64,000 bases of DNA from contig JABWCF010000016.1 in the NCBI GenBank assembly GCA_013359255.1, positions 1 through 64,000 on the forward strand. The letters are read 5' to 3'. This document shows, piece after piece, positions 4,099 to 52,534 of this stretch; the stretch's first letter is position 1, and every line of letters starts with the position of its first letter. The translations under genes and the position numbers were made by a program. The stretch comes from Flavobacteriales bacterium (GTDB lineage Bacteria > Bacteroidota > Bacteroidia > Flavobacteriales_E > Vicingaceae). The notes under the pieces are model-generated. The model had not been told where the DNA came from and ran no database searches. It was given only the letters and a program-made list of their open reading frames with translations.

Positions 4099-5909
4099 GG
4101 ATTTTGTATCAAATTGGCTTTTAACATACGTTCTTCAATATGAGGACGGGTAATGGTATCGGTTACGTATTTTTCTATGATTAAACTGGCAATAGGGGCC
4201 GCCCATGTGCCTCCAAATCCGGCATTTTCTACTACTACAGCAATGGCAATTTTAGGATTTTCGCGTGGGGCAAATGCAACGAAAACAGAATGGTCTTTTC
4301 CGTGTGGGTTTTGTGCTGTACCTGTTTTACCGCACATATTTATATCTTTTATTTTTGAGGCTGCGGCTGTACCCATTTGTACAGCCATTTCCATACCGTC
4401 TATTACTACATCGTAGTATTTTTCGTTAACACTAGCATGGTTTTTCTTTAAAAATTCTGCCTTGGTATATGGGGTGTCGTTCAATTTTTTAATAATATGC
4501 GGAATATAGTAATAGCCCCGGTTGGCAATAATGCACATTACGTTGGCCATTTGCACAGGTAAAATGCCTAGTTCTGCTTGGCCTATTCCAAGAGATACAA
4601 TGGTAGAAGATTTCCAACCATTTTTGCCAAAGTATTTATTATAGTATTCAACCGAAGGAACATTTCCGCTTAGTTCGTGCGGGAGGTCGGTACCTAATTT
4701 TTTTCCTATTCCAAAACTTAGAATGTGGTTTCTCCAATTGGTGTAGCTTTCTTCAAAGGTTTTAAATCCTTTTTTATCTACAATACTTCGGAATACGTAA
4801 CTGTAATACGAGTTGCACGATGTTCGGATAGACCCTCTCAAATCGGAGGGAGAAGCATGAGGGTGGCATTTGGGTTTGCCTCCTAATAGTGGATATCCGC
4901 CATGACAGGGGTATCGAGTTTCGGGAAACAGTACTTGTTCTTGTTGCCCTATTAAAGCATCTACCAATTTAAATATAGAACCGGGAGGATATTGTGCCAT
5001 TAAGGCTCTGTTGAAAAGTGGCTTTAGTGAGTCTTTTGCCAATTCAGGAAAATTTTTACTTCTTGCTCTTCCTACCAGTAAATTAGGGTCGTATGTTGGA
5101 CTGGTTATAAAGGCCAGTATTTCTCCGGTAGAAGGTTCTATGGCTACGATGCTGCCTTTTTTGTTTTGCATTAATTTTTCTCCGTATTCCTGAATTTGTT
5201 CATCAATGGTAATGTGCATGCTTTTTCCGGAAACGGCCAGTGTGTCAAATTTTCCATTGAGGTATTTTCCTTTTTCTCGGTTATGCACATCAACCATCAA
5301 GTAATTTATTCCTCTAATTCCACCTAAAATCTCTTCGTACGATTTTTCTATTCCACTCATGCCAATATAATCGCCCATGCGGTATTTCGGATTTTTTTTA
5401 ATGGTGTTTTCATCTACTTCGCCAATATAGCCCAACAAGTGTGCTGCAATGGATTTGGGGTATTTACGTAAGGTACGCCATTGCACGTAAAATCCGGGGT
5501 AATACATTAATTTTTCTTGTATTTCGGCATACGATTTAGATGAAATTTCTTTTTCGAAAACCGATGATTTATAGCGAGAATATTTTTTTGCTTTATGAAT
5601 TCGTTCTATGAATTGTTCTTTACTAATTCCAATTAATTTACAAAAAGCGAGCGTGTCTATAGGTTGTAGCTGGTTAGGGATTACCATTAAATCGTAAGCG
5701 GCTTCGTTGTATACCATTAATTTGCCGTTACGGTCGTATATCATACCCCGTGCAGGGTATATAATAACCCTGCGAAGTACATTATTGCTTGCTTCTAATT
5801 TATACTGATTATCCGGAATCTGAAGGTAAAACAAGCGGACCAGGAAAATAAAACAGAGCAAAGAGAAAATAAAGAAGATTACAATTTTTCTGTTTTCTAA
5901 ACCGTGCAT
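4095..5909 (-). CDS. mrdA: Penicillin-binding protein 2 (elongasome transpeptidase)
   Basis: A 604-aa class B PBP that cross-links peptidoglycan during cell elongation as partner of RodA. One N-terminal membrane anchor (about residues 8-27) is followed by a dimerisation/pedestal domain (PARGMIYDRNG, then YPKSIAAHLLGYIGEV). The transpeptidase domain has SxxK as PGSIFK near residue 310, SCN in RTSCNSYYSY as the SxN motif, and KTGTAQ near 528. The long YPCHGGYPLLGGKPKCHPH insert is typical of PBP2, where cysteines and histidines bind a metal in some homologues. It lies 4 nt after mreD and overlaps rodA by 4 nt. Confidence 0.96.
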   Translation of the reverse strand: MHGLENRKIVIFFIFSLLCFIFLVRLFYLQIPDNQYKLEASNNVLRRVIIYPARGMIYDRNGKLMVYNEAAYDLMVIPNQLQPIDTLAFCKLIGISKEQFIERIHKAKKYSRYKSSVFEKEISSKSYAEIQEKLMYYPGFYVQWRTLRKYPKSIAAHLLGYIGEVDENTIKKNPKYRMGDYIGMSGIEKSYEEILGGIRGINYLMVDVHNREKGKYLNGKFDTLAVSGKSMHITIDEQIQEYGEKLMQNKKGSIVAIEPSTGEILAFITSPTYDPNLLVGRARSKNFPELAKDSLKPLFNRALMAQYPPGSIFKLVDALIGQQEQVLFPETRYPCHGGYPLLGGKPKCHPHASPSDLRGSIRTSCNSYYSYVFRSIVDKKGFKTFEESYTNWRNHILSFGIGKKLGTDLPHELSGNVPSVEYYNKYFGKNGWKSSTIVSLGIGQAELGILPVQMANVMCIIANRGYYYIPHIIKKLNDTPYTKAEFLKKNHASVNEKYYDVVIDGMEMAVQMGTAAASKIKDINMCGKTGTAQNPHGKDHSVFVAFAPRENPKIAIAVVVENAGFGGTWAAPIASLIIEKYVTDTITRPHIEERMLKANLIQNP

Positions 5910-5913
5910 AATA

Positions 5914-6435
5914 CTATGATTTAGAATCGGCCTTTTTGAAAATAAATAATTGAGAAATAAGAATAAGAATAAACGTAAACAAGGTGCTGCTTATGCTTCG
6001 GCCAAGTGTGGTAAAAAAATGAGAAAAACGAAATACTTCGGTATAAAATAAAAAAAGATGGTGCAACAATGTAAGTGTAAAAGCATAAATGATAAACCAC
6101 TTAACACCCATATCTTGAAGGCGGGGGCGGGTGGTTGTATCATACCCTTCGCGGGGAGCAATTACACGTAAAATAAATGGCCGGAAAAAGGCCATAAACA
6201 CACTAGCTGAGGCGTGCACTCCTGTGGTTCCTAAAAAAATATCGACACATAAACCGAGTAAAAATGAAAGCAGTAATAAAGCATATTTCGAAATATCGAA
6301 AGGTAAAGAGAGGATAAAAAGAATATATAAATAGGGGTTTAAATACCCGCTTAGTTGAACATTGTTTAGCACAAACGATTGTAATAAGATGAGAAAAATA
6401 AAACTGAATATGTATCGAAATAAGTTGCTGTTCAT
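5914..6435 (-). CDS. mreD: Rod shape-determining membrane protein MreD
   Basis: A 173-aa very hydrophobic protein with about five membrane segments. It sits exactly where MreD belongs, with its start overlapping the end of mreC by 4 nt and its end 4 nt before mrdA. Visible family-like features are the N-terminal helix, the PYLYILFILSLPFDIS stretch, and LLSFLLGLCVDIFLGTTGVH, which matches the GxxxD pattern of MreD. It is part of the MreBCD elongasome complex. Sequence conservation is low in this family, so the assignment leans on position. Confidence 0.9.
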   Translation of the reverse strand: MNSNLFRYIFSFIFLILLQSFVLNNVQLSGYLNPYLYILFILSLPFDISKYALLLLSFLLGLCVDIFLGTTGVHASASVFMAFFRPFILRVIAPREGYDTTTRPRLQDMGVKWFIIYAFTLTLLHHLFLFYTEVFRFSHFFTTLGRSISSTLFTFILILISQLFIFKKADSKS

Positions 6436-19508: not shown

Positions 19509-20309
19509 ATGAAGGAGGGAAGTAAAAAAATAGTAAGTAATTGCATTATCTTAAGAGCCATTTTGGTGGCTTTTGTTTTCTCCTTGTTCTTTTCACTAAA
19601 AATGGTTTCAGCCAAGGAATGTTTCCCGGAAAAGCCTACTCCTGCTCGTTTTGTAAATGATTTGGCCAATGTATTTACAATAGCTCAAAAAAATGAATTG
19701 GAGAATAAAATAGGAATATTCAGCGATACGAATTCCACTCAAATTTTAGTAATTACCGTTTCTGATTTATGCGGATATGACAAGTCGGCCTTTGCACAAC
19801 AGATTGGAGAAAAATGGGGTGTTGGAAATAAAGATTTCAATAACGGAGTTGTTATTTTAGTAAAACCAAAAGAAATAGATGGAAAAGGAGAGGCCTTTAT
19901 TGCCAGTGGATATGGCCTTGAGGGGGCTTTGCCCGATGCAATTTGCTGGGATATTGTGCAAAATGAAATGATACCCCTATTTAAGAAAAAGGCATATTTT
20001 GAAGGAGTAGATGCTGCTGTAAACATAATTATGGGTATTGCTACGGGCGAATTTAAAACATATGAACCAGATAGAACTCCTCAAATTTCGGGTTTAATTG
20101 TTTTTTTTCTCATCATAGCTATATATGTTGCATTAGCCGTTTATCGTTCAAGAAAATATGGAACTATCTCGAGTGCCGGCAGAAGAGGGGGATCTATTTT
20201 TTATGGGGGAGGAGGGTTTTCTGGAGGTGGCTCTTCTTCGTGGGGCGGAAGTTCTCGTAGTTTTGGAGGAGGCAGCTTTGGTGGAGGAGGAGCTGGTGGA
20301 AGCTGGTAA
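19509..20309 (+). CDS. TPM domain protein with signal peptide, membrane helix and Gly/Ser-rich tail (YgcG-like)
   Basis: 266 aa. A signal sequence (about residues 12-35) is followed by a TPM domain with RFVNDLANVFTIAQKNELEN, QILVITVSDLCGYD, NNGVVILVKPKEID and YFEGVDAAVNIIMGIATGEF. A membrane helix follows near 195-213, then a tail dominated by Gly and Ser ending GGGGAGGSW. This layout is standard for YgcG-type proteins. GGAGG at 19497-19501 lies 7 nt before the ATG, but it is also the Gly-Gly codon pair ending the previous gene, so it may be coincidence. The operon ends against the convergent nuclease gene. Confidence 0.9.
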   Translation: MKEGSKKIVSNCIILRAILVAFVFSLFFSLKMVSAKECFPEKPTPARFVNDLANVFTIAQKNELENKIGIFSDTNSTQILVITVSDLCGYDKSAFAQQIGEKWGVGNKDFNNGVVILVKPKEIDGKGEAFIASGYGLEGALPDAICWDIVQNEMIPLFKKKAYFEGVDAAVNIIMGIATGEFKTYEPDRTPQISGLIVFFLIIAIYVALAVYRSRKYGTISSAGRRGGSIFYGGGGFSGGGSSSWGGSSRSFGGGSFGGGGAGGSW

Positions 20310-25501: not shown

Positions 25502-25696
25502 ATGATAGTAGTACCAGTTAAAGAAGGCGAAAGCATTGAAAAAGCACTAAAAAAGTATAAAAAAAAGTTTGAAAAAACCGGAGTGGTAAAAGAACTAAGA
25601 GAAAGACAACATTTTACAAAGCCTTCTATTATCCGCAGACAAGAAATTATAAAAGCGGTGTACGTACAAGGATTGCGTAGAAAAGAAGAAGCTTAA
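25502..25696 (+). CDS. rpsU: Small ribosomal subunit protein bS21
   Basis: A 64-aa basic protein with the bS21 pattern: VVPVKEGESIEKALKKYKKK at the N-terminus, RERQHFTKPSIIRRQE in the middle and a basic helical tail. In Bacteroidota ribosomes bS21, with bS18 and bS6, covers the 3' tail of 16S rRNA so that the anti-SD is not available. A Tyr at residue 54 is at the position I recall as contacting that tail. Unlike the strong SD reported for rpsU in Flavobacterium, the upstream sequence here has none. A strong hairpin terminator follows at 25721-25770. Confidence 0.96.
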   Translation: MIVVPVKEGESIEKALKKYKKKFEKTGVVKELRERQHFTKPSIIRRQEIIKAVYVQGLRRKEEA

Positions 25697-26659: not shown

Positions 26660-26666
26660 AAGGAGG
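26660..26666 (+). promoter_or_regulatory. Strong Shine-Dalgarno sequence before hpf
   Basis: AAGGAGG, 7 nt before the ATG at 26674. Seven contiguous matches to the usual 16S 3' end is unusual in this phylum, where most starts, and most genes in this window, lack any SD. Confidence 0.75.
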
Positions 26667-26673
26667 AAACATT

Positions 26674-26970
26674 ATGAAAGTACTGGTAAAAGTGCAATCA
26701 ATACATTTTGATGCAGACAAGAAATTGCTTACATTCATCCAAAAACGAATGGATAAACTGACCCAATTTTACGATAAAATTGAAGGAGCTGAAGTGTTTC
26801 TGAAATTGCAAAAAACCAGCAGCGATGAGAATAAAATAGCAGAAATTAAGTTGAATATACCTGGCAACGATTTGTTTGCCAAAAAGCAATCAAAAACTTT
26901 TGAAGAAGCGGTAGACTCTGTATCAGAGGCGCTACTTAAGCAAATTAAAAAACACAAAGAAAAAAAGTGA
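26674..26970 (+). CDS. hpf: Ribosome hibernation promoting factor, short form
   Basis: 98 aa, HPF/RaiA fold: VQSIHFDADKKLLTFIQKRM near residues 6-25, DKIEGAEVFLKLQKTSSDEN, VEI-type strands, then DSVSEALLKQIKKHKEKK. It lacks the C-terminal dimerisation domain of long HPF, so it would bind the decoding centre of idle 30S subunits and depend on a partner for 100S formation. It follows the recombinase by 18 nt and has a clear AAGGAGG site. A perfect 17-bp hairpin terminator follows at 26987. Confidence 0.93.
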   Translation: MKVLVKVQSIHFDADKKLLTFIQKRMDKLTQFYDKIEGAEVFLKLQKTSSDENKIAEIKLNIPGNDLFAKKQSKTFEEAVDSVSEALLKQIKKHKEKK

Positions 26971-51457: not shown

Positions 51458-51796
51458 ATGAAAAATCGTTACGAGACTGTCTTCATTTTAACTCCCGTTT
51501 TGTCTGATGCCCAGACAAAGGAGACAGTACAAAAATTTAAACAATTGCTGAAGGAAAATGGGGCAACTCTCCTTCATGAAGAAAGTTGGGGATTACGCAA
51601 ATTAGCATACCCCATTCAAAAGAAAAGCACAGGATTCTACTTTTTATTCGATTACGAGGCCGAAGGAACAATAGTAGACCCATTAGAAGTGAATTTTCGA
51701 AGAGACGAACGTGTGATGCGTTTTTTAACCGTAAAAATGGAAAAACATCATGCAGAATATGCAGAAAAACGTAAAACAAAATTAAAAACAGCTTAA
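51458..51796 (+). CDS. rpsF: Small ribosomal subunit protein bS6
   Basis: 112 aa with [20 protein letters not shown] at the N-terminus, [20 protein letters not shown], and [18 protein letters not shown]. bS6 pairs with bS18 on the 30S platform. In Bacteroidota this pair, with bS21, holds the 16S 3' tail. No SD precedes it, in contrast to the next gene. Confidence 0.96.
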
Positions 51797-51801
51797 GGAG
51801 G
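51795..51801 (+). promoter_or_regulatory. Strong Shine-Dalgarno sequence before rpsR
   Basis: AAGGAGG, 8 nt before the rpsR ATG at 51810, starting at the rpsF stop codon. This is the strongest type of SD in the window. It stands before the gene for bS18, one of the proteins that block SD recognition in this phylum. Confidence 0.8.
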
Positions 51802-51809
51802 AAAATAGT

Positions 51810-52073
51810 ATGGCCGCAGACGATATCAGGTATTTAACACCACCCAACATTGAATTAAGAAAAGAGAAGTATTGCCGTTTTAAAAAAATGGGCATAAACT
51901 TTATTGATTACAAAGACCCAAATTTTTTATTGAAATTTGTAAACGAGCAAGGAAAAATACTCCCTCGCAGGGTTACCGGAACCTCATTAAAGTTTCAAAG
52001 AAAAGTAAACCAAGCAATAAAAAGAGCTCGCCATTTGGCTTTATTGCCCTATGTTGCCGACCAATTAAAATAA
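51810..52073 (+). CDS. rpsR: Small ribosomal subunit protein bS18
   Basis: 87 aa: [20 protein letters not shown], then [20 protein letters not shown] and [18 protein letters not shown], the standard bS18 signature. It binds 16S rRNA with bS6. Aromatic residues near 60 (Phe62) lie where the Bacteroidota platform contacts the 16S 3' tail. The AAGGAGG site before it makes SD-dependent autoregulation a concrete possibility. Confidence 0.96.
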
Positions 52074-52079
52074 AAGGAG
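52073..52079 (+). promoter_or_regulatory. Shine-Dalgarno sequence before rplI
   Basis: AAAGGAG ends 8 nt before the ATG at 52088 and begins on the last base of the rpsR stop codon. Seven contiguous matches to the anti-SD region. Confidence 0.65.
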
Positions 52080-52087
52080 AAACGAAC

Positions 52088-52534
52088 ATGGAAATCATTT
52101 TAAAACAAGATATAGAAAAACTTGGCTTTAAGGACGAGTTAGTGAAGGTAAAAGACGGTTATGGTAGAAATTTTTTAATACCCAGAGGAATGGCCGTTAT
52201 TGCAAACTCTTCAAATAAAAAAGTTCTTCAGGAAAATCTTAGACAACGGGCAAAAAAAGATGCTAAACTAAAAGATGAAGCAACTAAATTGGCTGAAACA
52301 TTGAAAACACAAATTGTTTCTGTAGCTGTAAAAGCAGGAGAAAAAGGTAAAATATTTGGTTCCGTAAATACCATTATGCTTGCCGATGCTCTCCAAAAAG
52401 CGGGTCATAACGTAGACAGAAAGTATATAACTATTAGAGGTGAAGCTATAAAACAACTTGGAAAGTACGATGCGGATATTCGATTACACAGAGAAGTTTC
52501 TGCAACATTTAAGTTTGAAGTGGTAGCGGAATAA
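52088..52534 (+). CDS. rplI: Large ribosomal subunit protein bL9
   Basis: 148 aa. The N-terminal domain has ILKQDIEKLGFKDELVKVKD and GYGRNFLIPRGMAVIAN (family signature), followed by a long helix and the C-terminal domain (GEKGKIFGSVNTIMLADALQ). It is the last gene of rpsF-rpsR-rplI and is followed by a terminator. Confidence 0.96.
   Translation: MEIILKQDIEKLGFKDELVKVKDGYGRNFLIPRGMAVIANSSNKKVLQENLRQRAKKDAKLKDEATKLAETLKTQIVSVAVKAGEKGKIFGSVNTIMLADALQKAGHNVDRKYITIRGEAIKQLGKYDADIRLHREVSATFKFEVVAE

Follow-up and report, generated by a model that had tools for sequence, protein, structure and literature searches.

Ribosomes of Bacteroidia are reported not to recognise Shine-Dalgarno (SD) sequences, in vivo as well as in vitro, and protein bS18 forms part of the anti-SD pocket (PMC9976891). 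In Flavobacterium johnsoniae, mutation or depletion of bS21 leads to increased translation of reporters with a strong SD and not of others. Autoregulation of bS21 has been tied to an extended rpsU SD with an energy below −13 kcal/mol that is the strongest among the ribosomal genes, and energies of −14 to −21 are given for rpsU SDs (PMC9976891). Strong SDs before rpsR (bS18), rpsU (bS21) or both, with possible self-control, have been reported for other Bacteroidia orders; those before rpsR come from Bacteroidales, Cytophagales and Sphingobacteriales, and control of bS18 through the rpsR SD has already been suggested (PMC9976891). Our account of this rpsR-SD class draws on the findings of Jha 2021, as relayed by McNutt 2023 (PMC9976891) and PMC8710568. 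The core idea of the original prediction for the DNA analysed here, a feedback through bS18 and the SD of its own gene, is therefore already in print (PMC9976891). In E. coli, the S6:S18 complex binds a structured RNA leader before rpsF and controls that operon (PMC4647458), and bL9 lowers immature 16S rRNA in 30S particles (PMC4399890).

The rpsF-rpsR-rplI operon and the anti-SD pocket

The window, by which we mean the whole analysed stretch of 64,000 nucleotides from a Vicingaceae genome, contains the rpsF-rpsR-rplI operon at positions 51458-52534 and a separate rpsU gene:

25502..25696, forward strand: rpsU (bS21), without an SD (+1.8 kcal/mol), Tyr54 present; TIGR00030, 57.5 bits
51458..51796, forward strand: rpsF (bS6), without an SD (−1.0 kcal/mol); TIGR00166, 81.4 bits
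51795..51801, forward strand: SD AAGGAGG of rpsR, spacing 8 nt; from the sequence, −11.1 kcal/mol, rank 7 of 419, level with rplF
51810..52073, forward strand: rpsR (bS18); TIGR00165, 106.2 bits; top PDB chains 9i5v_I and 7jil_w
52073..52079, forward strand: SD AAAGGAG of rplI, spacing 8 nt; from the sequence, −9.3 kcal/mol, rank 13 of 419
52088..52534, forward strand: rplI (bL9); TIGR00158, 137.7 bits

The AAGGAGG of rpsR overlaps the rpsF stop codon (51794-51796) and lies 8 nt before the ATG at 51810; the AAAGGAG of rplI ends 8 nt upstream of the ATG at 52088. Both sites are thus present as originally described. Duplex energies with the 16S tail also bear out that rpsF, rpsU, tuf, secE, nusG, rplK, rplJ, rplL, rpoB and rpoC have no comparable site, the leaders of the last eight genes and of rplA lying within −2.7 to +2.9 kcal/mol.

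A single 16S rRNA gene was found in the genome. Its 3' end, GGAACACCTCCTTTCT, has the canonical CCUCC core, so that a tail without CCUCC, which the original prediction had named as counter-evidence, does not apply. The sequence TGGANCACCTCCTT is present in 15 of the 23 family genomes searched, the remaining eight giving no match; the tail of the window's genome was applied to all genomes, so that lineages with a different anti-SD are miscounted. For bS6, bS18 and bS21 the top PDB matches are chains of 9i5v, an entry for which the match listing gives no organism, followed by chains of 7jil (F. johnsoniae). The bS21 of the window has a tyrosine at position 54. All three proteins, Tyr54 and the canonical tail fit the bS21/bS18/bS6 pocket on which the original prediction was built; sequestration of the tail in this organism is predicted from these sequences. 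Chains of bS18 and bS6 from 9i5x, 9oyv, 9ozz and 9p0e also matched and no bS21 chain from those entries did; the four entries may be structures of bS21-free ribosomes.

The locus shares several properties with the published rpsR-SD class. The energy of its rpsR leader (−11.1 kcal/mol) lies below the −7 kcal/mol that delimits the class and inside the published range of −7 to −14 with a mode of −11, our values being ViennaRNA duplex energies with the 16S tail and the published ones having been computed by another program, free_scan; the genome has a canonical anti-SD, and rplI is among the published SD genes (PMC9976891). It differs in that the rpsR SD is found in one genus of a family otherwise without it in the loci read, that an rpsU SD is absent, and that SDs stand before hpf, Hsp20 and HU as well. 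With F. johnsoniae bS21 autoregulation it has the pocket proteins and the tail in common, which would make the same physical switch possible; however, the rpsU leader pairs at +1.8 kcal/mol instead of below −13, and only 2 of 23 family genomes have an rpsU SD at ≤−9 kcal/mol. The E. coli S6:S18 system controls the same operon and answers to the S6:S18 complex (PMC4647458), but acts through an RNA structure before rpsF. At gathering scores, Rfam returned only tRNAs for window positions 24900-52700, and hence no match to the S6:S18 rpsF leader, a search that a diverged or unlisted structure could escape.

Strong SDs in the genome of the window

SD strength was ranked in a 464-kb sample of the genome (the window and twenty 20-kb stretches) that holds 419 gene models. 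Start codons were assigned by an in-house gene model or by homology; among the 14 highest-ranking genes two have GTG starts, which may be wrong. At ≤−10 kcal/mol there were nine genes, one of them with a doubtful GTG start, compared with one mock window of 419. The excess at ≤−7 kcal/mol was small (26 genes versus 16 mock windows of 419), and thus only the strong end is informative. The rpsR gene ranked seventh of 419, level with rplF, and rplI 13th, level with two genes. Counting rpsR, seven genes pair at its energy or more strongly. The six others are hpf (−12.6 kcal/mol), an ECF sigma factor gene, rplF, two adjoining genes of locus L174 and one gene of locus L181 with the leader GGAGGAGG; four of them have no obvious link to the ribosome. 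With these six genes, the claim that the genome otherwise lacks strong SDs is not confirmed, and the occurrence of many unrelated genes with equal SDs, likewise anticipated as counter-evidence, is partly borne out in the 464-kb sample.

The two adjoining genes (L174:1309-5091 and 5128-6030, minus strand) have the common leader GAAAGCGAGGTAA, which contains no plain AGGAGG, and show the strongest tail pairings of the 419-gene sample (−13.9 kcal/mol). The ECF-type sigma factor gene (L184:14520-15113, minus strand) has AAGGAGG at −12.6 kcal/mol. In the window, a gene of 266 aa (19509-20309) is preceded at a distance of 8 nt by GGAGG (−9.3 kcal/mol); an NCBIfam search with this gene at 1e-10 gave no match.

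Genome-wide, AAGGAGG followed by 3-9 nt and ATG occurs at 46 places, and the reversed control pattern at 100. By inspection, seven of the 46 places are clear gene starts of at least 35 codons, belonging to rpsR, hpf, rplF, HU, Hsp20, the ECF sigma factor and a gene with an FGE-sulfatase domain, which is presumably GldK-like. Of 395 genes that could be placed among the 419, SDs at ≤−9 kcal/mol precede 11 of 174 with an upstream gap of ≤30 nt and 5 of 221 others (p 0.07).

The strongest site among the gene models of the window, absent from the original prediction, belongs to hpf:

26660..26666, forward strand: SD AAGGAGG of hpf, spacing 7 nt; −12.6 kcal/mol
26674..26970, forward strand: hpf, ribosome hibernation factor, short form, 98 aa; Pfam Ribosomal_S30AE, 70.0 bits (cut-off 23.7)

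It sits in an 18-nt gap after an xerC-like gene, in a cluster of rpsU, the xerC-like gene and hpf. Against NCBIfam yfiA the hpf product scored 37.5 bits, under the cut-off of 40.9.

Distribution in the family and across Bacteroidia

All 39 genomes of the window's order that were searched belong to one family with 14 genera. The gene for bS18 was found in 38, and 30 of these loci were read, a strong SD being defined as ≤−9 kcal/mol. A strong rpsR SD occurs in 2 of the 30 loci, both of the window's genus, and in none of the 28 elsewhere in the family, whereas rplI has one in 20 of 29 scored genomes; a further locus, L039, which was not among the 29, shows AGGAGG before rplI by eye. The rpsF gene has none in 30 loci. 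For rpsU the count is 2 of 23 genomes, both of them outside the window's genus. SDs precede rplF in 2 of 22 genomes and HU in 2 of 23 best homologues, in each case only in the window's genus, which rules out both as family-wide SD genes. The rpsR site is therefore peculiar to one genus, alongside others, and the rplI site is widespread in the family. An SD before hpf was present in 9 of the 20 family genomes in which hpf was seen, in three genera.

Two further genes of the family carry SDs at ≤−9 kcal/mol. For Hsp20 (L016:1501-1517, L388-L396), 11 copies were obtained from 10 family genomes and six of these copies have one, 13 of the 23 genomes searched having given no match and the count covering the family only. 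For rplE (L196-L217) the figure is 17 of 22 family genomes, with −7.5 kcal/mol in the window's genus. The rplE SD is a GGGGAGG or similar run within the end of rplX, where protein constraint and SD selection are entangled; codon choice at the rplX end may reveal selection for it.

For the class, a sample spread evenly over Bacteroidia was used. Of 99 genomes searched for hpf, 95 had the gene and leaders were read for 90; the window's own leader and those of G040, G062, G065 and G104 were dropped, and the better-scoring of two hpf matches was used. For rpsR, 80 of 92 chosen genomes were searched; 78 matched, and two of the window's family brought the set back to 80. Among the other 12, four were genomes whose hpf locus had not been read; in six more the locus as read did not include rpsU, and in two (G045, G134) it did. 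Strong sites (≤−9 kcal/mol) were found before rplI in 26 of 80 genomes (16 of 45 families), before hpf in 23 of 90 (14 of 50 families), before rpsR in 14 of 80 (8 of 45 families) and before rpsU in 13 of 58 (10 of 38 families). The controls gave 0 of 79 for rpsF and 3 of 70 for xer, the upstream neighbour of hpf that lies between it and rpsU and whose start codons are less certain. Mononucleotide shuffles led us to expect 3.0 sites for rplI, 3.45 for hpf, 2.55 for rpsR, 2.3 for rpsU, 0.15 for rpsF and 1.45 for xer. With a threshold tightened from −7 to −10 kcal/mol, the counts went from 28 to 23 (rplI), 24 to 21 (hpf), 14 to 14 (rpsR) and 16 to 11 (rpsU), and few leaders fell between −9 and −6 (three, one, two and six, respectively). 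The rplI, hpf and rpsR sites thus recur across families.

Sites of rpsR and rplI co-occur at the family level (7 both, 1 rpsR only, 9 rplI only, 28 neither; p 0.0016), as do those of hpf and rplI (9 both, 5 hpf only, 7 rplI only, 24 neither; p 0.016); p values are guides only, as the genomes are related. No association was seen between hpf and rpsR sites (family level p 0.69), and rpsU sites showed no relation to rpsR, rplI or hpf sites in the class sample. Over the 54 class genomes with both scored, rpsU and rpsR SDs showed no mutual exclusion and no association (2 both, 10 rpsU only, 11 rpsR only, 31 neither; p 0.7), with no sign of a trade-off between the two; none was seen between rpsU and hpf SDs either (family level p 1.0).

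Among named loci, the best 80 of 590 candidates chosen by similarity to the family's bS18, 36 have a strong rpsR site and 24 a strong rplI site. The 36 are made up of all ten loci titled Mucilaginibacter, Pedobacter or Parapedobacter, one MAG titled Flavobacteriales (L156) and 25 loci whose titles give Bacteroidales, a group belonging to that order, or no more than Bacteroidia or Bacteroidetes. A Pedobacter-like lineage with rpsR, rplI and hpf SDs is represented by G112, which at this operon shares 88.7% identity with Pedobacter psychrodurus over 1180 bases. None of the Flavobacterium, Myroides and Chryseobacterium loci in this set of 80 has a strong rpsR site. In 11 of the 80 (L092, L096, L099, L101, L105, L112, L116, L118, L128, L154 and L164) the final codons of rpsR are GACCTCCTT or GACCTTCTT, which are complementary to an SD, and all 11 are without a strong rplI SD.

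The recurrent strong SD before hpf across Bacteroidia families is new here. No report of it was found in the titles and abstract starts searched, weak evidence of novelty since subscription papers and supplements were mostly outside the search, and 'HPF' is absent from the main text of PMC9976891.

Possible readers of the strong SDs

The rpsR and rplI SDs are real and of a kind already described in print, the rpsR site being genus-restricted in this lineage. The reading that we favour, tentatively and at slightly under even probability, is that they are genuine SDs of a small set kept by Bacteroidia and that the 30S subunits best able to use them are those whose 16S tail is free, as reported for rpsU in F. 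johnsoniae (PMC9976891). Bacteroidia would keep such a set although the mature 30S hides the anti-SD; its mRNAs would be initiated best by subunits whose tail has left the bS21/bS18/bS6 pocket, as on incomplete or aged platforms, and bS18, bL9, HPF and some other proteins would rise when these subunits accumulate. We favour this reading because strong sites exceed the mock windows at −10 kcal/mol (nine versus one of 419), because the top PDB matches of the pocket proteins are chains of 9i5v and of F. johnsoniae 7jil, because the rplI, hpf, rpsR and rpsU sites exceed the shuffles while the rpsF and xer controls are low, and because rpsR and rplI sites, like hpf and rplI sites, co-occur. The rise of strong-SD reporters upon loss of bS21 in F. 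johnsoniae argues in the same direction (PMC9976891). That freed-tail subunits are the readers in this organism, with feedback as the outcome, is what we infer from these points. Several observations weaken the feedback: it predicts neither the four of the six other genes without an obvious ribosome link nor HU and the FGE-sulfatase-domain gene; the leaning of strong SDs to gaps of ≤30 nt also fits help for internal cistrons; the rpsR site is weaker than the published rpsU SDs (−11.1 against −14 to −21; PMC9976891); and hpf sites show no association with those of rpsR.

Instead, the SDs may be plain, unregulated boosters of constitutive initiation for close downstream genes and some abundant proteins, used by a fraction of ordinary ribosomes, which we regard as doubtful but a serious possibility. 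The rpsR, rplI, hpf and rplF genes are internal cistrons with short gaps, in keeping with the somewhat greater frequency of strong SDs at such gaps, and the rpsR, rplF and HU SDs of the window's genus are missing from the other genomes examined. Several unrelated genes of the window's genome pair as strongly, and the four without an obvious ribosome link make constitutive boosting more credible and the freed-tail reading less so. However, 163 of the 174 close downstream genes have no strong SD, and for xer, which follows rpsU in the cluster, the count is only 3 of 70 genomes (with less certain starts); the AAGGAGG-N-ATG pattern is rarer than its reversal (46 versus 100), and Bacteroidia ribosomes are reported to be blind to SDs, whether in vivo or in vitro (PMC9976891). 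That bS18-deficient ribosomes prefer rpsR mRNA and so replace bS21 autoregulation in this lineage, as the original prediction proposed, is improbable. The strong SD at rpsR with none at rpsU, the canonical tail and the place of bS18 in the pocket (PMC9976891) speak weakly for it, but within the family the rpsR SD is limited to the window's genus (2 of 30 loci), where alone, among the genomes examined, the rplF (2 of 22) and HU (2 of 23) SDs occur as well; the SDs of six further genes in the 464-kb sample equal or surpass that of rpsR, and the class shows no trade-off between rpsU and rpsR over 54 genomes. The rpsR site here looks like one of several genus-peculiar sites and not like an element dedicated to taking over from rpsU control. 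Purine runs that arose by chance, the genome being A-rich, would agree with the 39 of 46 AAGGAGG-N-ATG places that are not clear gene starts and with the slight difference between real and mock windows at −7 kcal/mol (26 versus 16); as the same genes recur across families, rpsF is without sites and the counts exceed the shuffles, chance is a very remote explanation.

Under the freed-tail reading, an SD at rplI could make sense if bL9 lowers immature 16S rRNA as it does in E. coli (PMC4399890), and through the hpf site subunits with a broken platform would summon the factor that parks them. A broader version, in which the freed tail switches on a stress-and-repair set in many Bacteroidia consisting of hpf, rplI, rpsR and sometimes Hsp20, is unlikely. 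If true, 30S subunits with a defective platform would call up both the missing part and a ribosome-parking factor, a link at the level of translation between subunit quality and hibernation that was not found in the literature searched. The recurrent hpf SD is the part most worth following; through it, the hibernation of ribosomes would be linked to an exposed anti-SD. Within one family, genera differ in which genes have an SD site, while the core of the anti-SD is retained.
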